From Crassaminicella indica (lineage in GTDB: Bacteria; Bacillota; Clostridia; Peptostreptococcales; Thermotaleaceae): a DNA stretch of 64,000 bases. The position numbers and the translations under genes were made by a program. The stretch spans positions 1,709,058 to 1,773,057 of the forward strand of contig NZ_CP078093.1 of the NCBI RefSeq assembly GCF_019203185.1. The letters are read 5' to 3'. Below, one piece after another: positions 22,981 through 48,704 of the stretch. The notes under the pieces were generated by a model. That model was given only the letters and a program-made list of their open reading frames with translations. It was not told where the DNA came from and made no database searches. Every line of letters starts with the position of its first letter. Position 1 is the stretch's first letter.

Positions 22981-23001
22981 AAAAATAGTAAATAAAATAA
23001 T

Positions 23002-23092
23002 CAATGGGAGCTGATGTTTTTGGCTGAGAGGGAATAAAAAATATTCCGACCATGAGACCTGATCTGGGTAATGCCAGCGTAGGGAATGCACA
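23002..23092 (+). promoter_or_regulatory. Thiamine pyrophosphate (TPP) riboswitch
   Basis: The conserved thi-box elements are all present: GGGAGC near the start, GGCTGAGAGGG, GACCATGAGACCTGATCTGG, then GTAATGCCAGCGTAGGGAA. A terminator follows directly, so TPP binding should stop transcription of the four-gene thiamine-precursor uptake operon. Confidence 0.97.
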
Positions 23093-23098
23093 TAAAAA

Positions 23099-23128
23099 CT
23101 GCTGCCTATTCTGAGCAGCATTTTTTTG
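23099..23128 (+). terminator. Riboswitch-controlled terminator
   Basis: TGCTGC / GCAGCA around a nine-base loop followed by seven T; it is the expression platform of the TPP riboswitch. Confidence 0.85.
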
Positions 23129-27499: not shown

Positions 27500-28279
27500 A
27501 TGAAAAATTACAAAAGATTCATAGCACTTGGACTTATGAGTGCAGTCATGGTCACAACAGCAGCTTGTGGAGGAGAAGCAGTTAAAGATATGGCTAGTAG
27601 TATGAAAGTAGAGAGCATGAAGACCTCTAAAGCAGATTCACTAGGATATACTTTTTCTGAAGTGAGTGAAAAACCTGAAATTCTAAAGGAATTTACAAAG
27701 ATGGATGCAGATTATGCAGCTTACCTAAAAAGTAATCCATTTAGCGTATTATTTTTAGATGAAAAAATGAATATAACAGATGAAACAGATGTATATTCTT
27801 TACCAGAAAAAGAAGATTCAACAGCTTTATATTTATACATAAAAAATGATAAGGTGATTAATGCAAAATTAGATGCATTTAATGGAGAAATAAATACAGA
27901 AGGATATACTTATGATACTTTATTTTATGATTATAGTAATAATATGGAAAAACAAGCAAAAGAGAAGGATTTTCCATATGATTTAGAAAACAATAAAGAT
28001 GATGCTGAAAAAGAACTAAAGGCTAAATTTGAAGGGAAAGGTATAGACGAGCTTCAAGATTTCTTAAAGGTTTATACACCGTTAAGAAAGTATGCGAGAA
28101 AAGATACAGATAAAACACTTGAGTCATATATGATCATTAGCGAAATTGGATATACTGCAAGTAAGACTATTAACGTAATTGTTAAAGATAATAAAATCGA
28201 AAAATTATATATAGATGAAAGCTATAGACCAGATAATGATCCTATTGAGATGTTAAAGGCAGTTACTGAGAAAAAATGA
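27500..28279 (+). CDS. Predicted lipoprotein, unknown function
   Basis: 259 residues beginning with a lipoprotein signal peptide (FIALGLMSAVMVTTAACGG; the cysteine is at about residue 23). The mature part is charged and non-repetitive, with alternating strand/helix pattern and no motif I recognise. ATG follows AGAAAGGAGATG. A hairpin follows, so it is a single-gene unit. Confidence 0.7.
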   Translation: MKNYKRFIALGLMSAVMVTTAACGGEAVKDMASSMKVESMKTSKADSLGYTFSEVSEKPEILKEFTKMDADYAAYLKSNPFSVLFLDEKMNITDETDVYSLPEKEDSTALYLYIKNDKVINAKLDAFNGEINTEGYTYDTLFYDYSNNMEKQAKEKDFPYDLENNKDDAEKELKAKFEGKGIDELQDFLKVYTPLRKYARKDTDKTLESYMIISEIGYTASKTINVIVKDNKIEKLYIDESYRPDNDPIEMLKAVTEKK

Positions 28280-28286
28280 TAGATTA

Positions 28287-28327
28287 AAAGATAGAGTACT
28301 TCTAAATGAAGGAAATATCTTTTTTTA
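28287..28327 (+). terminator. Terminator after the lipoprotein gene
   Basis: AAAGATA ... CTTC/GAAG ... TATCTTTTTTT, an interrupted stem with a T run. Confidence 0.6.
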
Positions 28328-28377
28328 TTGTGTTAAATGAAAAAAAGATTTGCACTTTTTAACTATATATGATATAC

Positions 28378-28533
28378 TTAAAAAGTTAGTTTGTTATTTA
28401 GAAAAATATGGGAATGTATCACCAAATAACTTTTTGCAATAAGCTTATCATTATTTTCAAAATTATTATAAAGATGTCTCACTTCATTCAAGCAATGAAG
28501 GATCTTTTCTATAATATCTTTTGTTACCCCTAG
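28378..28533 (-). pseudogene. Possible gene fragment cut by a MITE-like element
   Basis: On the minus strand an uninterrupted frame runs from the edge of the repeat element (28533) to TAA at 28378-28380, about 51 codons including KDIIEKILHCLNEV and LIAKSYLVIHSHIFL. It has no start codon with a ribosome site. It may be the 3' end of a gene truncated by the element at 28537, or chance. Product not recognised. Confidence 0.25.
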
Positions 28534-28536
28534 CTA

Positions 28537-28777
28537 TATAGGTAAACAACATCAACATAAAAAAAAGAAATATATAAAGATAAGTGAATGACTTCGATAA
28601 CTTTTGTAAAAAAACTTACTGAAATTACATGAAAAATACGTTAAGAACCTTCATTGTTTGAACGAAGTGAGTTTTGAAGGTTTAGTATTTTTTCATGGAA
28701 TGAAGTTTTGTTTTTTCAAAAGTTATCTGGTGGAATGAACTGTTCTTTATATTTCATTTTGAAGTTGTTTGCCTATA
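28537..28777. repeat. MITE-like element, copy C (longest form)
   Basis: About 241 bp between TATAGGTAAACAACATCAAC and the inverse end GAAGTTGTTTGCCTATA. The left 140 bp match copy D (53640) in reverse complement; the right 60 bp match copies A and E. Nested inverted segments surround AACCTTCATTGTTTGAACG. No open frame. Together with the flanking hairpins this accounts for most of the 660-bp gap 28280-28941. Confidence 0.7.
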
Positions 28778-28831
28778 GATAGAAAATATGTAAGGTTTAA
28801 TTATAAAATGTACTTAAATAACTGATTATTT

Positions 28832-28863
28832 ACTAACATAAAATCGTGATGTTAGTTTTTTTG
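28832..28863 (+). terminator. Terminator-like hairpin upstream of the UPF0316 gene
   Basis: ACTAACAT / ATGTTAGT around nine bases, followed by TTTTTTGTTTT. No gene immediately precedes it, so it could be an attenuator or mark a small transcript. Confidence 0.6.
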
Positions 28864-28941
28864 TTTTGAAATAGATGATATGAATTAAATAATGATTTAG
28901 GATAAGCAAGAAACGAACAAAAATTCAAAAGGAGGGATTTG

Positions 28942-29481
28942 ATGACAAACAGTATAATATTTGCACTTGTAGGTGTGTTTTTAACGACTGCTTTTACAAA
29001 TGTTTTAGCGACATTAAAAACTATATTGATATCGAAAAAAATTATGAATCCAGTTTATATTTTAGTATTTGTAGATGCGATGATTTTTGCAACAGTTATT
29101 GCAAAAATGAATAGTTCAAAGGGAATTCATTTTACTATTGCTTATGCATTAGGGAAGACTATGGGGGTTTTTATTGGAGGTAAACTTGAAGAGCGTTTAG
29201 CACTTGGTATTTTGGAAGTCGATGTATTTTTTAATAATAAAAATAAGATGATACAAATAGCTGAAAGACTTAGAGAAGCAGGCTATACTGTAAATAATTT
29301 TATAGCTAGAGGAAATAATGGGGATAAAAGGTATAAAGTTGAAATAGTGATTAAGAGAAAAGAATTCAAAGTGCTTGAGGATATTATGGATGCATGTGGT
29401 GTGCATAATCCAACATTGAAAATTAAAAATGTGAACAAGATAAATGGTAAAATCACTACAACTAGAATTAAAACAGTTTAA
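28942..29481 (+). CDS. UPF0316 membrane protein (DUF5698 + DUF2179)
   Basis: 179 residues. Three N-terminal membrane segments (about 5-110, with VGVFLTTAFTNVLATLKTI and YILVFVDAMIFATVI) are followed by a soluble DUF2179 domain (about 110-175, GYTVNNFIARGNNGDK) that resembles small ligand-sensing domains. Function unknown. ATG at 28942 is set by GGAGGG; the ORF opens three bases earlier at TTG. Confidence 0.8.
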   Translation: MTNSIIFALVGVFLTTAFTNVLATLKTILISKKIMNPVYILVFVDAMIFATVIAKMNSSKGIHFTIAYALGKTMGVFIGGKLEERLALGILEVDVFFNNKNKMIQIAERLREAGYTVNNFIARGNNGDKRYKVEIVIKRKEFKVLEDIMDACGVHNPTLKIKNVNKINGKITTTRIKTV

Positions 29482-29595
29482 TTTATTAAAAGCAAAATCA
29501 TTATGAAAAAAAGCTAAAACAATTAAAAATACATGAAAGTTTGTATATACTAAAACCAATAAATCCTTATTTTTCAATGGTAGAACCGAAACATT
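29480..29595 (+). CRISPR. Solo CRISPR leader with a truncated repeat
   Basis: The 100 bp from 29480 are nearly identical to the leader of the array at 37477, including a promoter (TTAAAA, 17 bp, TATACT) and the leader end TTTTTCAATG. The first 16 bases of the 30-bp repeat follow (GTAGAACCGAAACATT, 29580-29595). A six-base interruption and a degenerate rest (AGATGTATAGATTG) then run into a terminator. No spacer is present. It is either the relic of an array or the source of a short crRNA-like RNA. Confidence 0.85.
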
Positions 29596-29601
29596 TAAAA
29601 A

Positions 29602-29633
29602 AGATGTATAGATTGATATACATCTTTTTTTGT
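29602..29633 (+). terminator. Terminator directly after the solo repeat
   Basis: GATGTAT / ATACATC around an eight-base loop followed by seven T. A transcript from the leader promoter would end here, about 75 nt long. Confidence 0.75.
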
Positions 29634-29668
29634 GCGTAAATCTAAAAATCAAATAAAGGTAAATGTAG

Positions 29669-29697
29669 TCGACAAATGGAAAATTTTATAATAATAT
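29669..29697 (+). promoter_or_regulatory. Candidate promoter of the cmr operon
   Basis: TCGACA, 17-bp spacer, TAATAT, about 100 bp upstream of cmr1. Confidence 0.45.
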
Positions 29698-29796
29698 TAT
29701 ATAAAAGAGAATATATGGAAATGATTGTTATATAAATTTTTAACAAATAGAAAGTGTTGTAGGGTTAGATTTAAATAGGCAAAAAGGGGGAGGAAT

Positions 29797-30855
29797 TTGA
29801 AAAAAGTAAAAATAAATTTAGAGATTGTTACCCATATGTTAAGTTTTGGGAATAATACAGAAAAACCAGAATTTAGAATACCAGAATTAAAAGCACTTAT
29901 GAGGAATATTTTTAGAGAACTATATGATTTTAAGGATGTAGATGATATGAAAAATAAAGAAGAAATTTTATTTGGGAGTTTAAAGAAAAAATCACCTATA
30001 TCATTGAAATTAAAATCAATGAAAGTATTTAATGAAGAAGTAGAAGTATTGCCTCATAAAAAAAGTGTAAAAATGAAAGCTATACCACCGAAAACAAAAG
30101 TAACTTTATACATGTTTGGAAGAGATGAAGAAAAATTAGATATGTACATGATATTATTGATTTTGTCATCTATTATAGGTTCTTTAGGGAGACGAAGTAG
30201 AAAAGGTTTTGGTTCCTTTAAAATTATTAGAATTGAGGGGGAAAAAGAGAGCCAATATAAAGAGTATGGTGAGTTAATAAGTAAAAGTGCTGTAGATATA
30301 TTTAGAAAACTTGAAGAAATATGTTGTGATAAATTTTACAAAATGAGGAAAATAGATATATATAAAGATAAGCATGATAGATTGAGTATTGTAAACATAA
30401 AAGACTTCAGCAATAAATATAAATTGAATTATCCTTATGCAGAAAAGATTCATATAATAAAAATCGAAAAGAATATTAGATATAAAGAATTAATAAAATA
30501 TATTTCTAAATTAACTCATGATCGACTATGTTTTAATATAAAAGGAAGAAAAGATTTTAGGGAAGGAATTCCTTATAAATATAGAGTAGATAAAAATATA
30601 TTAGGAAATTATAGATCTAATAGCAGGTTTGCAGCACCTGTAGTTGTGTCATTTTGGGAAAATAGCAAAAATAAATATTTAATACTTAAAGAATTGAATA
30701 TTAACTATCAATTACAAGCGTTATGTAAACAAGAAAATAAAGGAAAAAAACAAGAAGAAAAATATAGTTATAAAGAGTTTGAAAAAGCTAATATAAGTTA
30801 TGTAGATAAGTATATTAATAAGTTAATTTATATAGCTAAAGGAGAAAAGAAATGA
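29797..30855 (+). CDS. cmr1: Type III-B CRISPR RAMP protein Cmr1
   Basis: 352 residues. The N-terminus (VKINLEIVTHMLSFGNN followed by EFRIPELKALMRNIFRELY) has the Cmr1 layout in which a ferredoxin-like RAMP strand leads into the PELR-x-S/A-x-K-G/A motif. The glycine-rich segment SLGRRSRKGFGSFKI is the second RAMP hallmark. Cmr1 caps the 3' end of the crRNA in the Cmr effector. The start is TTG behind AAAGGGGGAGG. Its end overlaps cmr2 by four bases (ATGA). Confidence 0.85.
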   Translation: MKKVKINLEIVTHMLSFGNNTEKPEFRIPELKALMRNIFRELYDFKDVDDMKNKEEILFGSLKKKSPISLKLKSMKVFNEEVEVLPHKKSVKMKAIPPKTKVTLYMFGRDEEKLDMYMILLILSSIIGSLGRRSRKGFGSFKIIRIEGEKESQYKEYGELISKSAVDIFRKLEEICCDKFYKMRKIDIYKDKHDRLSIVNIKDFSNKYKLNYPYAEKIHIIKIEKNIRYKELIKYISKLTHDRLCFNIKGRKDFREGIPYKYRVDKNILGNYRSNSRFAAPVVVSFWENSKNKYLILKELNINYQLQALCKQENKGKKQEEKYSYKEFEKANISYVDKYINKLIYIAKGEKK

Positions 30856-32642
30856 GTTATTTATTGGGGGTAACTATAGGACCTGTACAGACTTATATAC
30901 AAGAGTCAAAAAAGCTTTTGGACTTATATAATAGTAGTAAAATTATATCGAATCTAATGAAAAACGTCTATAAATACATAAAAGGAAAGAATGCAAACAT
31001 TGAGGTTATTTATCCAAATTATCAAGATATACAAGGCGTGGACTATTCTAATTATATAGTTTTTGAAATACCAGAGATAATAGATCTAAATGATATAGAA
31101 GAGAAAATATATAAAGAAGTTAATGAATCTGTAGCAAAAGAATATGAGTGCGATTTAAAAGAAGTATTTTATTTGTTCTGGGCAATAGAACAAATAAAAA
31201 ATAATGGATATTATGAAGCTTATAAAGAATTGACAAGATTTATAAAAAGCTTGAAAAATACTTATGAATTTGATCAAAACCTTCAAGAAAAAGGGAAAAA
31301 AAAGTGTTTAATTTGTGGGAAAAGAAATATTACTGATAAAAAATCAAAGGATAAAGAAGAATTATGTAGGTTGTGTTTGTTTAAAAGAAATTACAAAGAA
31401 AGAAATAAGGCGGATAAAAATAAGTTTTTATCAGTGGATACAATTGCTATAGAACCTTGGAAGAGAAAAAATAAAGAAAAAATAAAAGAAATAACAGCAA
31501 AATTAAGTGAATTGTTTTTAGAAGCAGATAAATATTATAATCCAAATGAAATAGACAATATAATTAATACATTAGAGAAAATTAATAAATTTCATAGGAC
31601 AGGAATAAATCAAGGAATAGAAAAAGATTTAGAAAAAAAATTAAAAAAGATAAAAGGTGAGCTAAAAGGCAAGAAGGATTTAAAAGAAATCTTAGAAGGA
31701 CTTAAAAGTATAAGAAAAATTATGAATGATGTTTATAATGATGAGAAAGTAAGTCTGCCAAGTTATGAATATTGTTTTATTCAATTTGATATAGATAATC
31801 TAGGTCGTTTGATGAGCGGTGAATATTTAGATGGTAGAAAAGATTTAAAGACATATCAAAAGGACTTTTCTAGGATATTGATTAAATTTGGAAGTGTTTT
31901 AGTAGAAGCATTGAAAAATACAGCTTGCCAAATTATTTATTCAGGAGGAGATGACTTTTTAGGAGTAATGCCTAAAGAAGAAATTATACGTGTTGTAGAG
32001 ATAATAGATAAAATTTTTAAAGAACAAGTCCCAAAAGAGTACGAAGAGTATGTGACATATTCAATGAGTATCACGATTGGGCAATGCAAAGATCCAATGA
32101 GTTATGTTTTAAGAAAAACAAGAGCAGAACTAGAAAAGGTAAAAAAAAGATTTGAGAAAAAAGAGATAGAAAAAAATGGTATGGCTATAACATATATTAT
32201 AAACAATAGTAAAGAAATTACATGCTATTTACAAAGAGAGAATAGTAACAGGTTACTAGAAATTATTAAGTCTTTTGAACTTATAAAAAATAGATTGTCA
32301 TTTTCTTATATATATCATTTTGAAAAAATGCTTTCCTTGCTAAAGCATTATAATCTGAGCTTTGAGGAGTTAAGATCGTTTTTGGATATTACAAAATGCG
32401 AATTAAGAAGGTTTTTATTGAGAAGTAAAAATGTAAAAGAAAAAGATGATCAAGAAGTGGTAGATAAGTATATTCAAAATTTTGTAGACTTTATAGAAGA
32501 TATTATTTACAGCAATAGAGAACAGATTAGTGCAAATTCAGAAAATATTGATTTTAAAAACATCATTAATATTATGCATATGAACGAAAAATTATCTAAA
32601 ATTGATTTTCAACTAAATAAAGTAGAGGTGAATGAAAAATGA
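30852..32642 (+). CDS. cmr2: Type III-B Cas10/Cmr2, without HD domain
   Basis: 596 residues. The N-terminus LGVTIGPVQTYIQESKKLLD is the usual Cmr2 opening. A zinc finger is formed by Cys152, 155, 172 and 175. The first palm motif lies at FIQFDIDNLGRLMSG (about 309-323). The cyclase motif SGGDD is intact at about 364-368, so synthesis of cyclic oligoadenylate on target-RNA binding is expected. No HD nuclease region is visible, and the protein is shorter than HD-bearing Cas10, so DNA cleavage by Cas10 is unlikely. Defence would then depend on the cOA-activated nuclease encoded two genes on and on Cmr4. Confidence 0.9.
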   Translation: MSYLLGVTIGPVQTYIQESKKLLDLYNSSKIISNLMKNVYKYIKGKNANIEVIYPNYQDIQGVDYSNYIVFEIPEIIDLNDIEEKIYKEVNESVAKEYECDLKEVFYLFWAIEQIKNNGYYEAYKELTRFIKSLKNTYEFDQNLQEKGKKKCLICGKRNITDKKSKDKEELCRLCLFKRNYKERNKADKNKFLSVDTIAIEPWKRKNKEKIKEITAKLSELFLEADKYYNPNEIDNIINTLEKINKFHRTGINQGIEKDLEKKLKKIKGELKGKKDLKEILEGLKSIRKIMNDVYNDEKVSLPSYEYCFIQFDIDNLGRLMSGEYLDGRKDLKTYQKDFSRILIKFGSVLVEALKNTACQIIYSGGDDFLGVMPKEEIIRVVEIIDKIFKEQVPKEYEEYVTYSMSITIGQCKDPMSYVLRKTRAELEKVKKRFEKKEIEKNGMAITYIINNSKEITCYLQRENSNRLLEIIKSFELIKNRLSFSYIYHFEKMLSLLKHYNLSFEELRSFLDITKCELRRFLLRSKNVKEKDDQEVVDKYIQNFVDFIEDIIYSNREQISANSENIDFKNIINIMHMNEKLSKIDFQLNKVEVNEK

Positions 32643-33721
32643 AAAGTTTATTGAAGATAAAACCTTGTGATAATACTTTTTTTAGAGATGGAAATCAATT
32701 TAATTTTGATATTCATGAGGTAATACGGAGTAAAAATACACCTTATCCATCTGTATTTTTTGGAGCTATCTTCACTGCTTTATTAGCTCATAATGATGAG
32801 TTTCGAAGAGCTTTTTTTAAAAAGGCAAATTATGATCATGAAAAAATATTGGCTTTGCAGCAGGTTTATTTATGGGATGAAAAAAATAAAAAAGCATATA
32901 TCAAAGCTCCACTGGACTTGTTTATTAATGAAAATGGGGATGTAGTTTTCGGAGAATTTAAAAAAGTAGATTCTAAATTGCATTCTCTATCCTTTGAATG
33001 TTTTTTACAATGTCCTGAAGATAAAAATTATAAAAGAGTAAGCAATAAATATATTAACATAAAAAATATTTATGATGCTTATGCAAAAAAGCAAGGTATA
33101 AGGCTTGAATTAAAAGATGAAAATGAAATTTTTATTAAAAACTACAAAATAGGAATAGGAATAAATAAGAATACAAAATCCATAAAACATGGGAACATGT
33201 ATAGAATAGAGCAGACAGAATTTATTAATAATAACTGGTCTTATGTTGTAGAATATGAAATCAATAGAGAATATTTAGAAACTAACTATAATGGAATAGA
33301 TTTTGATAATTTAGAACAAGGATACTTAAAATTAGGAGGAGAAAATAAGGTTTGCAAATTTGAAAAGCATATAAATGAAAAAATTTACAAATTTCACAAG
33401 AAAAGATTAAAAGAAATAAATTCTAATAAAGTTAAAATACTCTTGACTAGTGAGACATTTTTTGATGAAGATGTAAAAGATATTTTTAAAGGAGATTTAA
33501 AACTCTTAGGAATGGTTAATGATAAACCTATACATATTGGTGGTTACGATATGCAGGGAAAAGGAAGTGCCAGAAAAATGTATAAGGGGTATGATGCAGG
33601 AACTATACTTTTGGTAGAAGGACTTAATAAAAAAAATGTAAAAAAAGAAATATGTAAAAAAATTAATAGAAATAATCCAAAAGGATTCAATCAGTTTGTA
33701 ATATTAGAGGGGGATTTTTAA
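32639..33721 (+). CDS. cmr3: Type III-B CRISPR RAMP protein Cmr3
   Basis: 360 residues. The opening KIKPCDNTFFRDGNQFNF followed by YPSVFFGAIFTALLAHN is the Cmr3 signature (D-x-x-x-F-R-D-G-x-x-F, then PS-x-x-x-GAI). A late glycine-rich loop reads HIGGYDMQGKGSARKM. Cmr3 is Cas5-like and holds the crRNA 5' handle next to Cas10. ATG overlaps the cmr2 stop; the next gene starts one base after its stop. Confidence 0.9.
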   Translation: MKSLLKIKPCDNTFFRDGNQFNFDIHEVIRSKNTPYPSVFFGAIFTALLAHNDEFRRAFFKKANYDHEKILALQQVYLWDEKNKKAYIKAPLDLFINENGDVVFGEFKKVDSKLHSLSFECFLQCPEDKNYKRVSNKYINIKNIYDAYAKKQGIRLELKDENEIFIKNYKIGIGINKNTKSIKHGNMYRIEQTEFINNNWSYVVEYEINREYLETNYNGIDFDNLEQGYLKLGGENKVCKFEKHINEKIYKFHKKRLKEINSNKVKILLTSETFFDEDVKDIFKGDLKLLGMVNDKPIHIGGYDMQGKGSARKMYKGYDAGTILLVEGLNKKNVKKEICKKINRNNPKGFNQFVILEGDF

Positions 33722-35029
33722 ATGACAGAAAAGAGTTCGATTAATCTAGTTGTATGTTCAACACTTAATCAAATTACTAATTATTTGACGATTATAAAAT
33801 ACAGACCAAAGAAAATTTTTAACATTACATTCCATAAAGATATTTTACCAAAGTTTAATATAAATATTAAACCACACAAATGGGACAAGCAGTTAAAAGA
33901 AACTATTGGAGATGAATATATTTTTGAAGAGGATATAAAACTTAGTAATATATATGATCTAGGAGATATAAAAGAAAAATTAAAAGAAAAAATTATAGAT
34001 AAATTACCAGATGAAGAAGTAATTTACTGGAATGTAACAGGAGGACAACGAACTATTGCTTTAGCAATCAGTGAATTAATAAGAGAAAAAAATAGGAAGA
34101 AGGATCGTGTGATATATATAGAAGGAAATACAGAAAAACTAATCTATAACAATTATAAAGGGGAACTAATAAATTATGAAGATATATCATATAAAGCTTC
34201 TTTGCTTAATTTTGATAAAGCTTTAAGTTTGGTTGGATTTAAATGTAATTCTACGAAAATAAAGAGTACTATGATATTAAAAAAAGAGGGAGTAAGTACA
34301 GAAAACGAAAAACAAGCTGAATATAGCTTTTATAAAGCATTATATAAAATTGTAAAATTACAAGAAAAACGATGTAGAAGAAAATATAAAATAAGCTTTG
34401 ATGGAAAAGAATATAATGATTGTTTTAGAAATCTTTTGTTAAAAATCAATACATTTGAAAGCGGAGAAAAAAGACAAATGTTTGCAAAAGAGCTATTTAA
34501 TATATTAGTAAAGGAACATAAGGAACTGAAGGATACAAAATACTTTACAAAAGATATAGAAGAAATTAAAAAATCATATCCAGCAGGATATATATTTGAA
34601 AAACTAACAGCTTATAAAATTTATGAAATAATAAAGAATAATCACAAAATCATTGGTATGGAGACTAGTTTGAAAATTTATTTTAATGATGAAGAAAAGC
34701 CTAATCATATAATTGATGAGTTAGATATTGTTTTATTAACAGATACAGGAAAGATTATTAACTTTGAATGTAAATCAGGTGGTATGAAAGGAGATAATGC
34801 TAAAAGTCACAAATATACAACTTATAGATTATCAGGTGTATTTGGTATGCCTATATTATTATCGCCTCTTTATTACAAAGAAACTTTAGACGATTTTAAA
34901 AATGAAGATGAAATCCTCAAAAATCAGCTACAAGCATTTAGAGCAGCAAAAGCAGCTGAACTTGAAGTTTTTACGATAGATAAAATAGAAGAAGGATTGA
35001 AAAAATTGGGATATAGTAGGAATTCATAG
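33722..35029 (+). CDS. CARF-domain PD-(D/E)xK nuclease, Card1/Can2-like
   Basis: 435 residues. The N-terminal Rossmann-type CARF domain (about 1-150) carries the ligand motif NVTGGQRT (104-111). The C-terminal nuclease domain has GYIFEKLTAYKI (Glu293), DELDIVLLT (Asp335) and NFECKSGG (Glu349-Cys-Lys351), a complete E/D-ExK metal site. This is the layout of Can2/Card1 (DUF1887-related), which are activated by cyclic tetra-adenylate to cut nucleic acids. It is embedded between cmr3 and cmr4, so it must be made in step with the effector. Which cOA it senses cannot be told from sequence alone. Confidence 0.82.
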   Translation: MTEKSSINLVVCSTLNQITNYLTIIKYRPKKIFNITFHKDILPKFNINIKPHKWDKQLKETIGDEYIFEEDIKLSNIYDLGDIKEKLKEKIIDKLPDEEVIYWNVTGGQRTIALAISELIREKNRKKDRVIYIEGNTEKLIYNNYKGELINYEDISYKASLLNFDKALSLVGFKCNSTKIKSTMILKKEGVSTENEKQAEYSFYKALYKIVKLQEKRCRRKYKISFDGKEYNDCFRNLLLKINTFESGEKRQMFAKELFNILVKEHKELKDTKYFTKDIEEIKKSYPAGYIFEKLTAYKIYEIIKNNHKIIGMETSLKIYFNDEEKPNHIIDELDIVLLTDTGKIINFECKSGGMKGDNAKSHKYTTYRLSGVFGMPILLSPLYYKETLDDFKNEDEILKNQLQAFRAAKAAELEVFTIDKIEEGLKKLGYSRNS

Positions 35030-35059
35030 AGTATTTAATAAATATAAGGGGGATATAAA

Positions 35060-35914
35060 ATGTATAAAACAAAAGAAATTATCTATATTAAAGCAATTAC
35101 ACCTATCCATGCAGGATGTGGACAAAATATTGGAATTGTAGATATGCCTATACAAAGAGAGAGACACTCTAATATACCAAAAATAGAAGCTTCTAGCTTA
35201 AAGGGTTCTATAAAGTATAGTCTATATAAAAAAATTGAAAAGAAAAAAGAAGCAGAGGAAAAGAAAAAAGAGCTATATACTATATTTGGTTCAGAAGATG
35301 AGGCAGATTATGCAAGTGCTATAGGTTTTACGGATGCAAAGTTATTATTTTTTCCTATTAAATCGACTACAGATATTTTTAAACTTATTACTTGTCCCTA
35401 TATAATCAAAAGATGGATAGAAGATTTAGAATTTGAAAATGAAGAAACAAAAAACGAATTTAATATGAAACTAGATGATGGAGAATTTATAAGCAATAGT
35501 AATGAAGAAAAAATTGTTTTAGAAGAATATATATTTGAAAAAAAGAAACGATTAGAAGAAAAAAGTAATATTTTTGATATTTTCAAAAATATAGGAATTG
35601 ATGTTAGTAGAGTTACTATTATATCAGATTCAGATTTTGAGGATTTGGTTACTATGTATACTGAAGTTATTACAAGGAATAGAATAAATATTAAGACTGG
35701 AACAACAAAAGATTCTGCACTTTTTACAGAAGAGTATTTACCAGCAGAAACGATTCTTTATTTTATGGTATTAGGTTCACCTTCATTTAAAAATGAAGAT
35801 GTTAAAACGGCAGATAATGTGCTGGAATATTTCAAGAAAAATGTGGATAAAGTGTTTCAAGTAGGAGGAAATGCAACTATAGGAAAAGGATTTGTAAAGA
35901 TGTTAGGAAAGTAG
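35060..35914 (+). CDS. cmr4: Type III-B backbone RNase Cmr4
   Basis: 284 residues, Cas7-like. The N-terminal motif ITPIHAGCGQNIGIVDMPIQ is followed by RERHSNIPKIEASSLKGSIK. Asp28 in VDMPIQRE corresponds to the catalytic aspartate that cuts target RNA at 6-nt steps. The C-terminus contains VGGNATIGKGFVKM, the usual glycine-rich loop. It forms the filament that displays the crRNA. It starts 30 bp after the nuclease gene. Confidence 0.92.
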   Translation: MYKTKEIIYIKAITPIHAGCGQNIGIVDMPIQRERHSNIPKIEASSLKGSIKYSLYKKIEKKKEAEEKKKELYTIFGSEDEADYASAIGFTDAKLLFFPIKSTTDIFKLITCPYIIKRWIEDLEFENEETKNEFNMKLDDGEFISNSNEEKIVLEEYIFEKKKRLEEKSNIFDIFKNIGIDVSRVTIISDSDFEDLVTMYTEVITRNRINIKTGTTKDSALFTEEYLPAETILYFMVLGSPSFKNEDVKTADNVLEYFKKNVDKVFQVGGNATIGKGFVKMLGK

Positions 35915-35924
35915 AGGGATAGTT

Positions 35925-36356
35925 ATGTCTGAAATTAAAAATATAAATTTAGAAGTTGCGAGCTTTGCAATAGAAAAAGTTAAGAATGTTTGCAATAATA
36001 AAAAAATGGATAAAAATTATAAAACTTTAGTAAAAAAGATGCCTGCTTTGATTCAAAAAAATGGACTTATACTTACTTTGGTTTTTAATTGGTCAAAAGT
36101 AGAAAAGCTTCATCATAAAGAGGTTTTGAAAAATATCATCCATTGGCATAAACAAAATAGTAAAATTAAAGATTTTGAAGGTTTTAAAGAAGTTGATTTT
36201 GACAAAAATGAAAAAGATACAAAAGTGATTGAAAAATATATAAAGGCAGTTACAGATTTAGATCAAAGAGAATATAGATTATTAACTAAGGAAATGATGT
36301 CGTTGTTTGGTTGGATTAAAAGATTTGCTGAAGGGATGATTGAAGGTGAAGAATAA
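35925..36356 (+). CDS. cmr5: Type III-B small subunit Cmr5
   Basis: 143 residues, predicted all-helical. INLEVASFAIEKVKNV, then KKMPALIQKNGLILTLVFNW matches Cmr5 (pattern P-x-x-I-x-x-NGL-x-x-x-L-x-F). It stacks along the Cmr4 filament and contacts the target RNA. It overlaps cmr6. Confidence 0.9.
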   Translation: MSEIKNINLEVASFAIEKVKNVCNNKKMDKNYKTLVKKMPALIQKNGLILTLVFNWSKVEKLHHKEVLKNIIHWHKQNSKIKDFEGFKEVDFDKNEKDTKVIEKYIKAVTDLDQREYRLLTKEMMSLFGWIKRFAEGMIEGEE

Positions 36357-37293
36357 AATAAAGAGTAAAAAAGAGGATAAGAGTGGAGAAAGTAAAGAAA
36401 AAAAAGATAAAGAAAATTTAAAAAGATGTTATACATACAATTCATTAATGAAATGTTTAGACAAATACAAAAGAGAAAATATTAATAAATCGCTTTTAAT
36501 TAATAAATTTACTAGTATTTCAAATATGGATAAGTATATGTATTATTCAGTAAATGAAAATGAAAAAAAATTACTTAAATCTATTCGTGAGGAGTATAAT
36601 TGCATTAAAAAAAGTCTACAAGAAACACATGATTGGCTGAACTTTTCTGCAAGAATAGATGACAAGCTGATCATAGGGTTAGGAAATCATTCTATATTTG
36701 AAACAGATATTACTTTGCATCATATATATGGAATACCTTATATACCAGGGTCTGCTATAAAAGGTACCTTAAGAAATTATATTATACAAAAATATTTTAA
36801 AGAGTGTATAAATTGTGATAAAAATTGTAATGATGATTGCAAAAAAAATGATAAAGATTATAAAATTTTTACAGAAATTTTTGGAGGAAAAAATACGAAA
36901 GGAAAAGTAATCTTTATGGATGCATTTCCTGTAAAAAGTTTCAAAATAAAAATGGATGTGATGACACCACATCATAGTAATTATTATGAAAAAAATGTAC
37001 TACCATTAGATACTGATACACCTAAGCCCATAAAGTTTTTAGTATTGATGAAAGATAGTACAGATGATGATATTACATTCGAATTTAATTTAGGAATAGA
37101 TAAAATATTAGCTAATAAAAAATTAAGTAAAGAAATTGAAAGTAATATAAAGAACATTAATAAAGAATTATGTAATTATCAAATTGTAAAGGAATTTGTG
37201 AAAAAAAATTTTAAAGAAGCATTAAATTTTAATGGAATCGGTGCAAAAAAATCAATAGGATATGGATACTTTGAGATGGATAGAGAATTCTAA
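36340..37293 (+). CDS. cmr6: Type III-B CRISPR RAMP protein Cmr6
   Basis: About 317 residues. IIGLGNHSIFETDITLHHIY, then GIPYIPGSAIKGTLRNYI is the Cmr6 signature; IFGGKNTKGKVIFMDAFP and MTPHHSNYY follow. A lysine-rich N-terminus and an internal cysteine cluster (CINCDKNCNDDC) are unusual. It lies at the crRNA 3' end with Cmr1. The start is TTG at 36340 or GTG at 36346, inside the end of cmr5. It is the last gene of the type III operon. Confidence 0.9.
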   Translation: MKVKNKIKSKKEDKSGESKEKKDKENLKRCYTYNSLMKCLDKYKRENINKSLLINKFTSISNMDKYMYYSVNENEKKLLKSIREEYNCIKKSLQETHDWLNFSARIDDKLIIGLGNHSIFETDITLHHIYGIPYIPGSAIKGTLRNYIIQKYFKECINCDKNCNDDCKKNDKDYKIFTEIFGGKNTKGKVIFMDAFPVKSFKIKMDVMTPHHSNYYEKNVLPLDTDTPKPIKFLVLMKDSTDDDITFEFNLGIDKILANKKLSKEIESNIKNINKELCNYQIVKEFVKKNFKEALNFNGIGAKKSIGYGYFEMDREF

Positions 37294-37375
37294 GAATGAT
37301 ATTTCATAGAGATTGAAATTGTTTAAAACCGTATAATGTCTGAAATTACTAATTTTCCAGATGATTTTATTAGAG

Positions 37376-37476
37376 AATTTATTAAAAGCAAAATCATTAT
37401 GAAAAAATAGCTAAAATAATTGAAAATACATGAAAGTTTGTATATACTAAAACTAATAAATCCTTATTTTTCAATG
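37376..37476 (+). promoter_or_regulatory. CRISPR leader of array 1
   Basis: An AT-rich leader with promoter TTGAAA, 17-bp spacer, TATACT (about 37420-37448), ending CTTATTTTTCAATG just before the first repeat. It is a near-identical copy of 29480-29579. Confidence 0.85.
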
Positions 37477-38489
37477 GTAGAACCGAAACATTAGATGTAT
37501 TGAAATTGGTTATTTGCACAAATGGTATGGGCGATTATCGAGTAGAACCGAAACATTAGATGTATTGAAATTGACAACTTTTAATCGTTTCACCATTTAC
37601 ATAAATTTCGTAGAACCGAAACATTAGATGTATTGAAATTTTATTTCGTCTGCTGTGTAGTTTTCAAGTCCTAAGTAGAACCGAAACATTAGATGTATTG
37701 AAATAATAGTAATAGTAGTAGTAATACTGGAGATACAAGTAGAACCGAAACATTAGATGTATTGAAATATGTTATTTAGTTGTAGCAACAAACTGCCATG
37801 TTTGTAGAACCGAAACATTAGATGTATTGAAATAATTTCAACTGAATCAATTATAAAATTTTCTTCTATAGTAGAACCGAAACATTAGATGTATTGAAAT
37901 AATACATTATTACTCTTTAACTGCCCTAACGCAAGTAGAACCGAAACATTAGATGTATTGAAATTAATGTGCTTCTGGCTTTATATTTTGCAGTTACAGT
38001 AGAACCGAAACATTAGATGTATTGAAATTATTGTAATTCTAATACTTCATTTTTTCTCAATCGTAGAACCGAAACATTAGATGTATTGAAATAGGACAAT
38101 TCTTTGATAATCATGACCATCCCATACAGTAGAACCGAAACATTAGATGTATTGAAATTAGTCATCATACTCCGGAACACAATTAGCAGGATTGGTAGAA
38201 CCGAAACATTAGATGTATTGAAATGAGATAGGATAGTAAGTATTTGTGTCCCCATAGTAATCGTAGAACCGAAACATTAGATGTATTGAAATAATTGTAA
38301 CACCTAAAGAAATTGCTACTTACTATAGTAGAACCGAAACATTAGATGTATTGAAATAATTCTCCTAAAGTATCTATAGCTCTATCGATCATAGTAGAAC
38401 CGAAACATTAGATGTATTGAAATATTTGACTTTTAAGCCTTAAGCCTCTATCGACTACAGTAGAACCGAAAAATTAATAAAAATAAAAA
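37477..38489 (+). CRISPR. CRISPR array 1: 15 intact repeats plus a degenerate last one, 15 spacers
   Basis: The 30-bp repeat starts GTAGAACCGAAACATT and ends AGATGTATTGAAAT. Copies begin at 37477, 37542, 37610, 37675, 37739, 37804, 37871, 37935, 37999, 38063, 38129, 38195, 38263, 38328 and 38394. The last, at 38460, keeps only GTAGAACCGAAA. Spacers are 34-38 bp. The ATTGAAAT end gives the 8-nt 5' handle expected after Cas6 cleavage of a type I-B repeat. Leader and degenerate end agree on plus-strand transcription. Spacer 4 (37705-37738) is identical to spacer 2 of array 2. Confidence 0.98.
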
Positions 38490-38493
38490 ATTA

Positions 38494-38518
38494 AGGGCAA
38501 TATATGCCCTGTTTTTTT
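38494..38518 (+). terminator. Terminator after array 1
   Basis: AGGGCA / TGCCCT around five bases, then GTTTTTTT, just after the degenerate repeat. Confidence 0.8.
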
Positions 38519-46308: not shown

Positions 46309-46798
46309 AAATCACAGGAACTTTAATGAATTACTATATACATTGTAAAAGGCAGTGTTGGCTTCATGGGAATAAAGTAAATTTGGAGGATTATAGTGAA
46401 TTGGTTAAGATAGGTAAAGAAATGCATAATCAGAAATTAGATAAAAAAAACATACAGAAATTACTATTGAAAATATTAAAATTGATAAAATTAAGGGAGA
46501 ATATTTAGTAGAATACAAAAAATCCAATGCGGATATAAAAGCAGCAACATGGCAAATTTTATATTATCTATATATATTAAGAGGAAAGGGGATATATAAA
46601 AAAGGAAAACTTATATGTATGGAAAAAAATAAAGATGTAAAAAAGGTTGTAGAAGCAAGGCTGACAGAGGAAATGATAAAGATTATAAATAAGGTTGAAA
46701 AACAAATTGAAGATTTAATTCTATCTGAAGAGATACCAAAAGTAAAACTCACTAGTAAATGCAAAAAATGCGCATATTATGCATATTGTGCATTATAG
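46305..46798 (+). pseudogene. cas4: Frameshifted cas4
   Basis: The first frame (MKITGTLMNYYIHCKRQCWL...) runs from 46305 and stops at 46508. From about 46452 another frame continues the protein: TEITIENIKIDKIKGEYLVE, then YKKSNADIKAATWQILYYLY, up to CKKCAYYAYCAL and TAG at 46796-46798. Adding one A to the A8 tract at 46443-46450 joins both into a normal 164-residue Cas4, with its RecB-type nuclease residues and the four iron-sulfur cysteines. Cas4 trims and selects prespacers with Cas1-Cas2. The defect may be a real mutation, a phase-variable tract or a sequencing error. Confidence 0.9.
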
Positions 46799-48119: not shown

Positions 48120-48281
48120 TCAAAATTAAAACTGCTATGAGACAGTTATTGCAAAGGCTTGATTAGGTTTTTAATGTAACTTTTCAATTATTATCAAATC
48201 ATTAGAAAAAATTCTTGAAAAGGATTTAAAATACTTGATTGTGTAATCAAACAAGTATTTTAAAATGGCTATTTTTCAGTG
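48120..48281 (+). promoter_or_regulatory. Leader of CRISPR array 2
   Basis: AT-rich DNA ending GCTATTTTTCAGTG, like leader 1 (TATTTTTCAATG) for the last dozen bases but otherwise different. It holds an 11-bp inverted repeat, TAAAATACTTG (48227) and CAAGTATTTTA (48252), which may be a leader motif or a weak terminator for the cas operon. Confidence 0.65.
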
Positions 48282-48704
48282 GTAGAACCGAAACATTAGA
48301 TGTATTGAAATGCGGAATTCAGACAAGGTTTTTTTTTCGGTACCGGGTAGAACCGAAACATTAGATGTATTGAAATAATAGTAATAGTAGTAGTAATACT
48401 GGAGATACAAGTAGAACCGAAACATTAGATGTATTGAAATAAAAAATAAATATAGATTTTGACCATAAAATCGACCGTAGAACCGAAACATTAGATGTAT
48501 TGAAATTTTAACTTCGCTTCAATATTATTATCACGTCTTAACTGTAGAACCGAAACATTAGATGTATTGAAATTCTGTATACGCCCAATCAGGCAAATTA
48601 AAAGTTATAGTAGAACCGAAACATTAGATGTATTGAAATTCGCCTAATAAACTCATGCTTATATTTTCAGTAACGTAGAACCAATTGTTTTGGTGGACAG
48701 AAAT
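48282..48704 (+). CRISPR. CRISPR array 2: 6 intact repeats plus a degenerate last one, 6 spacers
   Basis: Same 30-bp repeat as array 1, at 48282, 48347, 48411, 48477, 48544 and 48610. A last copy at 48675 keeps GTAGAACC and GAAAT but has an unrelated middle. Spacers are 34-37 bp. Spacer 2 (48377-48410) is identical to spacer 4 of array 1; no other spacer is shared. It lies downstream of cas2. Confidence 0.98.

Follow-up and report, generated by a model that had tools for sequence, protein, structure and literature searches.

A solitary CRISPR leader with half a repeat upstream of a cmr operon in Crassaminicella indica, probably the stub of a collapsed array

Between a UPF0316-type gene and the type III-B cmr operon of Crassaminicella indica lies a solitary copy of the resident CRISPR leader, which is joined to the first 16 nucleotides of a repeat and followed by a hairpin with a T run. 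This unit is probably what is left of a CRISPR array after the loss of all its spacers (a collapsed array), and it is most likely an ordinary relic. The first-pass annotation of the window (the whole stretch of 64,000 nucleotides that was analysed, to which the coordinates below refer) had described a leader, a promoter, 16 repeat bases and a T-run hairpin at 29480-29633, placed between UPF0316 and cmr1; all of these elements were confirmed, and so was their placement. The CRISPR leader of about 100 bp is present as described, except that it is the proximal part only, about 80 bp upstream being absent. The suggestion that the unit could be a dead array fits well with what was found, namely a leader, a terminal repeat of the damaged type and no spacer.

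Anatomy and genomic setting of the unit

The features of the region are the following.

28939-29481, plus strand: UPF0316-type gene with a DUF5698 domain (Pfam PF18955, E 2.4e-10)
29480-29579, plus strand: solo copy of the CRISPR leader, proximal 100 bp only (alignment to array 1, genome search)
29523-29551, plus strand: leader promoter, TTAAAA-17-TATACT (promoter scan and leader alignment)
29580-29595, plus strand: half repeat, the 5' 16 nt of the 30-nt repeat GTAGAACCGAAACATTAGATGTATTGAAAT, the 3' half with the 8-nt handle being absent
29597-29631, plus strand: 14-bp hairpin with A6 before and T7 after it, a probable intrinsic terminator, possibly bidirectional (folds)
29797-37293, plus strand: type III-B cmr operon (Pfam)
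37300-37476, plus strand: complete leader of array 1, upstream limit approximate
37477-38475, plus strand: array 1, 16 repeats, the terminal repeat GTAGAACCGAAAAATT being also cut to 16 nt
38494-38518, plus strand: terminator right after the truncated terminal repeat of array 1 (scan, fold)

Aligned from 29481 onwards, the solo leader and half repeat agree with array 1 (37377-37492) at 112 of 116 columns; for each of the 270-kb and 264-kb arrays of the genome the figure is 105 of 116. The leader alone, searched against the genome, matched array 1 with an E value of 2.9e-39 and the 270-kb and 264-kb arrays with 1.3e-29. The homology begins inside the UPF0316 stop codon (29479-29481), at its second base, 29480; upstream of this part the leaders of array 1 and of the 270-kb and 264-kb arrays continue alike for about 80 bp. 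The half repeat GTAGAACCGAAACATT is an exact match to the 5' part of the repeat. When up to 3 mismatches were allowed, 23 half-repeat matches were found in the window, arrays included, against a mean of 0.55 in shuffled windows, and in the 2.76-Mb genome the solo half repeat is the only copy outside the four arrays, bar two matches with 2 mismatches (a backwards-pattern control of this genome search gave two matches as well).

The stem of the hairpin pairs 29597-29610 with 29617-29630, and the T7 run occupies 29625-29631. The fold of 81 nt that includes the hairpin has an energy of -16.6 kcal/mol, against -8.31 (sd 2.42) for shuffles (z -3.43). The hairpin was missed by the terminator scan, which needs at least 3 G-C pairs, because its stem has only two. 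Promoter and terminator scans were consensus matches only; on this measure the solo promoter carries 9 of 12 consensus bases and that of array 1, TTGAAA-17-TATACT, 10 of 12, and promoter-like sites show no excess in the whole region (69, against 79.1 in shuffles). A transcript, if made, would start at about 29558, end at 29631 and measure about 74 nt. The terminator of array 1 repeats the layout of the solo unit in an unrelated sequence. In the window the only curated Rfam match is a TPP riboswitch at 22994-23103; a permissive scan of 28200-29800 returned three miRNA-family matches, all far under their gathering scores, and these were set aside.

The cmr operon consists, in order, of a RAMP gene, Cas10/Cmr2, Cmr3, a gene of 435 aa, a RAMP gene, Cmr5 and a further RAMP gene. 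The 435-aa gene (33722-35029) has a sub-threshold match to a Card1-like endonuclease and possibly encodes a CARF-type effector, or an unrecognised Cmr subunit. The first cmr protein was searched for in 58 related genomes (E up to 1e-8) without a match, so that the operon looks acquired. The leader of array 1 starts within about 10-20 bases of the last cmr stop, and the two leader copies (29480-29595, and the end of the array 1 leader with 16 repeat bases) therefore bracket the operon as direct repeats of about 115 bp, 7,896 bp apart. To judge from this layout, recombination between them could delete cmr, leaving UPF0316, a leader and array 1; this effect on the genome is the chief one that the stub would still have.

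After cmr come array 1, a WYL regulator, cas6, a gene in the place of cas8b, cas7 and a gene in the place of cas5, and then cas3, cas1, a cas2-sized frame and array 3. The cas8b, cas5 and cas2 genes are named here by gene position, without family match, and the assignment to type I-B depends on this position-based naming. Between cas3 and cas1, a cas4-like frame (46309-46758), which we take to be cas4, appears to be broken by a frame change.

The arrays themselves gave several further observations. Spacer 4 of array 1 (37675-37769) and spacer 2 of array 3 (48347-48441), flanking repeats included, are identical over 95 nt; sequence has therefore been exchanged or copied between the two arrays, which speaks for the collapse reading given below. 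The leader of array 3 (48196-48281) is without the TATACT promoter found in the other leaders and contains a long inverted repeat, AAAATACTTG...CAAGTATTTT, noticed by eye; array 3 may not be transcribed from its own leader. The end of the 264-kb array (G000:C1:262600-262900, L009) holds repeated 5'-truncated repeats and a duplicated spacer. Positions 16-33 of the 35 in spacer 5 of that array match cmr2 at 31477-31494 in 18 of 18 bases, which may reflect low complexity rather than self-targeting, several other matches of 13-14 bases being found elsewhere. When the spacers were compared with the unit and the cmr promoter, a 14-nt match between internal positions of array 1 spacer 6 and 29679-29692 was taken as chance; it is one of dozens of matches of 13-19 nt made by AT-rich spacers.

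Probable array collapse and the state of the stub

In the solo unit a leader of the resident type is followed directly by one repeat, which is partial (16 of 30 nt) and damaged in the manner of a terminal repeat, its first 16 bases being intact and its 3' half lost. The two or more repeats and the spacer that make up a functional array are not found there. Collapse would have occurred by recombination of the leader-proximal repeat with a terminal repeat that was already truncated at its 3' end, with loss of everything in between, and the outcome would be a leader joined to the terminal half-repeat; a terminal repeat sharing 16 bases would still be able to recombine, less readily. No crRNA is expected from the stub because the handle-bearing half of the repeat is gone, and because half of the repeat is missing it is expected to be a poor or dead site of spacer uptake. 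The hairpin most likely ends UPF0316 transcripts, and any leader transcript, ahead of the cmr promoter. When the 260 nt that follow the UPF0316 stop were scanned by script, the best-scoring T-run hairpin was that at 29597-29631 (the best two rows), and ending the transcript of that gene is thus its likely use. At position 13 the solo half-repeat has the consensus C and the terminal repeat of array 1 has A, and the downstream sequences are unrelated; the stub thus does not derive from the tail of array 1 itself. We infer the lost array, since no strain with the uncollapsed array was found.

Passages of a review (PMC8047081) state that terminal repeats often bear substitutions or truncations at the 3' end, and that the whole array could be eliminated if a terminal repeat free of polymorphism recombined with the first one; collapse followed by re-population is described there as supported in Legionella, with reference to Deecker and Ensminger 2020 on type I-F. 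Among 15 arrays that were walked from the leader end, 7 have a clearly degenerate terminal repeat (at least 3 mismatches); summed over these 7, the first 15 bases hold 7 mismatches and the bases beyond them 37. The remaining 8 end in a repeat with 0 or 1 mismatch. Truncation of the terminal repeat is therefore common, not universal. The walk took 7 of the 13 arrays from the family of G595 (a genome described below) and left out L089, L090, L094, L096, L097 and L098, which have 21 or more repeats each in the stretch examined; two of the 15 are of other repeat types (the second array of G595 and the array of G009), and in the 264-kb array the walk stopped at 262835, beyond which further, partly damaged repeats follow. 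Array 3 and one array of G003, a genome of the same genus with the same repeat type, end in short repeat stubs that were seen by eye and missed by the walk.

At least one further solo leader, and perhaps a second, occurs elsewhere, and the collapse reading is supported by the fact that its repeat is altered at the same, 3', end as the degenerate terminal repeats. In a sample of 391 genomes from the class, the nearest Cmr2 found, at 49% identity, is that of genome G595; a full array lies upstream of its cmr genes, and downstream of them stands a solo leader of the same sequence type with a single repeat, the final four bases of which are altered. A less certain candidate for a solo leader with a 3'-altered repeat comes from Thermohalobacter berrensis (L048), in which a 24-base junction match, with a contig end some 300 bases away, leads to one repeat ending in CAAGA, where related repeats end in GAAAT or TAAAT, and then to unrelated DNA. 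Its upstream leader is hardly alike (67 of 122 columns), and a search of the T. berrensis genome with up to 3 mismatches gave no second copy of the repeat; as no other copy provides its own consensus, this repeat can be called damaged only by comparison with its relatives. The flanks differ among the solo leaders of the window, G595 and T. berrensis, and no T-run hairpin comparable to that at 29597-29631 was seen by eye directly after the solo repeats of the latter two. Such units are exceptional: the 194 genomes of the G595 family yielded 14 leader-repeat junctions, spread over 7 of them, and 13 of these junctions start arrays of at least 3 repeats, the G595 junction being the only solo one, and in the genus of the window 6 of 7 junctions start arrays.

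The first-pass annotation had proposed that the unit of leader, half-repeat and terminator be sought in related genomes, and its conservation was not found in a sample of one genome per species. When the whole unit was searched for in 4 genomes of the genus, its own included, 3 gave some match, and the only long leader matches outside its own genome were the two arrays of G003. In G003 only arrays and no solo unit were seen; one apparent solo match (C66:27938-27998) proved to be an ordinary repeat within a long array. Of the 16 genomes of the family, two had the junction pattern, and both belong to the window's genus; in the order it was present in 4 of 393 genomes, two of these (G224 and G135) being one- or two-mismatch matches in other families. 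Close relatives of the UPF0316 gene occur in five other genomes (72-91% identity), each time with other DNA in the roughly 480 nt examined downstream. In G009 (L063:7000-7830) a different CRISPR array ends upstream of UPF0316, and a leader-like piece of 52 nt follows with 84.6% identity to 37341-37392, in the distal portion of the leader found in the window; CRISPR loci may have settled near UPF0316 repeatedly.

Four columns of the 116 differ between the solo leader and that of array 1. Two of the changes, the loss of one T (a 1-nt deletion) and the change of the -35 box to TTAAAA, are private to the solo copy; TTGAAA stands in all five comparable promoter-bearing array leaders, and the leaders that agree against the solo copy are those of array 1, the 270-kb array, the 264-kb array and both G003 arrays. 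The other two columns cannot be polarised. The private changes are a suggestive, not a strong, sign of decay of the solo copy, and TTAAAA together with TATACT could still work weakly. Against collapse it must be noted that only 4 of 116 columns is little decay, and that the absence of the upstream 80 bp or so of the leader is unexplained by collapse alone. As to an origin of the hairpin elsewhere in the genome, the best match, besides the hairpin itself and its own reverse arm, was 75% over 74 nt, and it covers the cmr upstream region (29651-29723), not the hairpin.

Alternative readings of the leader, the repeat and the hairpin

The solo leader may never have belonged to a separate array, the leader of array 1 having been copied when cmr entered beside it, for example by recombination at the leader; the 16-nt repeat stub would then mark the end of the copied stretch. 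We hold such a duplication to be rather unlikely, though several observations speak for it: the solo leader is nearest to that of array 1 (identical at 112 of 116 columns, while the 270-kb and 264-kb leaders reach 105), the copies bracket an operon that looks acquired, its first protein being unmatched in the 58 related genomes, the array 1 leader stands within about 10-20 bases of the last cmr stop, and the cmr genes of G595 likewise stand between a full leader with its array and a solo leader. However, the two copies would be just as alike after gene conversion between leaders, and duplication leaves unexplained both the altered 3' end of the G595 solo repeat and the degenerate terminal repeats in 7 of the 15 arrays.

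That the hairpin at 29597-29631 belongs to UPF0316 alone, with the stub merely caught between gene and terminator and having no transcription of its own, is highly improbable as a separate explanation; it is compatible with collapse and really an addition to it. Two of the five relatives do have a T-run hairpin 57-63 nt past the UPF0316 stop (one of them weak, -3.0 kcal/mol), and a third (G012) has one by eye, but these hairpins are unrelated in sequence and two of the five relatives show none. It is also conceivable, on modelled folds, that Cas6 holding a small hairpin in the nascent stub would prevent the terminator from forming, so that polymerase would read into cmr. The repeat stub and the first terminator arm could pair as ACAUUU/AGAUGU, like the repeat's own small hairpin; a nascent RNA of 37 nt is predicted to fold in this way at -2.6 kcal/mol, compared with -1.8 for the genuine repeat, and this fold and the terminator are mutually exclusive. 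Such an attenuator is nevertheless very unlikely. Among 200 shuffles, 13 reach an equally good fold; the stub has lost the 3' part of the repeat, and the cut site with it, and the leader has a weakened -35 box; the unit is kept in no relative examined, and the G595 solo repeat has, by eye, no T-run hairpin after it. Were this improbable device real, a CRISPR relic would have been reused such that free Cas6, when crRNAs are few, allows transcription into cmr, and the type I-B crRNA supply would be coupled to type III-B expression.

The first-pass annotation had also offered a CreR-like regulatory RNA, bound by Cas6 or a Cas complex and tuning cas or cmr expression. Taken as a short guide-like transcript that Cas6 or Cascade would bind and that would repress a cas or cmr promoter, this reading is given hardly any credence. 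Excerpts of the published work state that Cas5 is bound by the final 8 nt of the repeat, the part best conserved in the first pseudo-repeat of CreA (PMC9458426), that CreA is processed by Cas6 and that CreR represses its own cas promoter (PMC12737573). The unit does have cas genes as neighbours, carries a promoter of the leader type and is predicted to give a short, terminated transcript, and at 29612 it has a handle-like ATTGATAT that shares 7 of 8 bases with the ATTGAAAT of the repeat; yet the repeat ends at nt 16, without the Cas5-binding handle that closes a first pseudo-repeat, its 3' half is not intact, and the handle-like bases sit in the loop and second arm of the terminator. A trace of the 3' half, AGATGTAT-GA in the first terminator arm, is possible only, its score being equalled by 145 of 5000 shuffles and 61 of 4143 window 40-mers. 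Nothing downstream resembles the six cas intergenic regions more closely than chance allows (65 to 300 of 300 shuffles were as good in each of the 12 region-strands), and the best seed match, 10 of 11 bases inside the apparent broken cas4, has its equal in 61 of 600 window 12-mers and in 183 of 600 shuffles. With the handle half of the repeat absent, no second repeat and matches at chance, the suggestion was not borne out, and a tempting regulatory reading of the solo unit is corrected. The missing handle is a stronger argument here than the seed test, which may be insensitive; its negative is weaker than it looks because a CreR candidate in G595 also gave nothing. In that element (L084:17072-17155) a 22-nt pseudo-spacer stands between two degenerate repeats; a cas8b-type gene (Cas_TM1802) directly follows it downstream, and a HepT/nucleotidyltransferase pair lies upstream. 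It is a good CreR/CreA candidate, and its pseudo-spacer showed no seed match to adjacent DNA above chance (932 of 1000 shuffles were as good).

Comparison with known systems

In two clostridia that belong to different families (n=2), a cmr operon has a leader copy on either side. This layout merits a survey, since bracketing copies would let recombination remove or add cmr. Within the open-licence literature searched, the unit itself appears not to have been described; array collapse and ectopic repeats of the guide type have been.

Solitary repeat units, which give the Racr RNA anti-CRISPRs (PMC10651486, as far as the excerpt of that paper goes), resemble the unit in having one repeat after a promoter. 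They are described as repeat mimics in viral genomes, whereas the unit of the window stands beside the host's own cas genes and has half a repeat; an identification with Racr was rejected on that half repeat and on the location, in a single contig of 2.76 Mb beside those cas genes. The 24-base junction pattern had 0 matches in viral_contigs. With CreR and CreA, as they are presented in the excerpts of PMC12737573 and PMC9458426, the unit shares a repeat-derived sequence outside an array, beside cas genes and with a promoter, but it is without the handle and the second repeat, and a seed test that may be insensitive recognised no target of a pseudo-spacer.

The closest likeness is to the collapsed arrays dealt with in passages of PMC8047081, in which a leader is directly followed by a single repeat with damage of the terminal, 3' type and no spacers. 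The unit of the window differs from them in that its repeat is cut to 16 nt, so that re-population looks unlikely, in that its leader is shortened upstream, and in that a cmr operon lies between the stub and an array of 16 repeats. A sequence test may be proposed from this comparison: a solo leader followed by a single 3'-damaged repeat would point to a collapsed array, while a relic of the guide type should have kept the handle.
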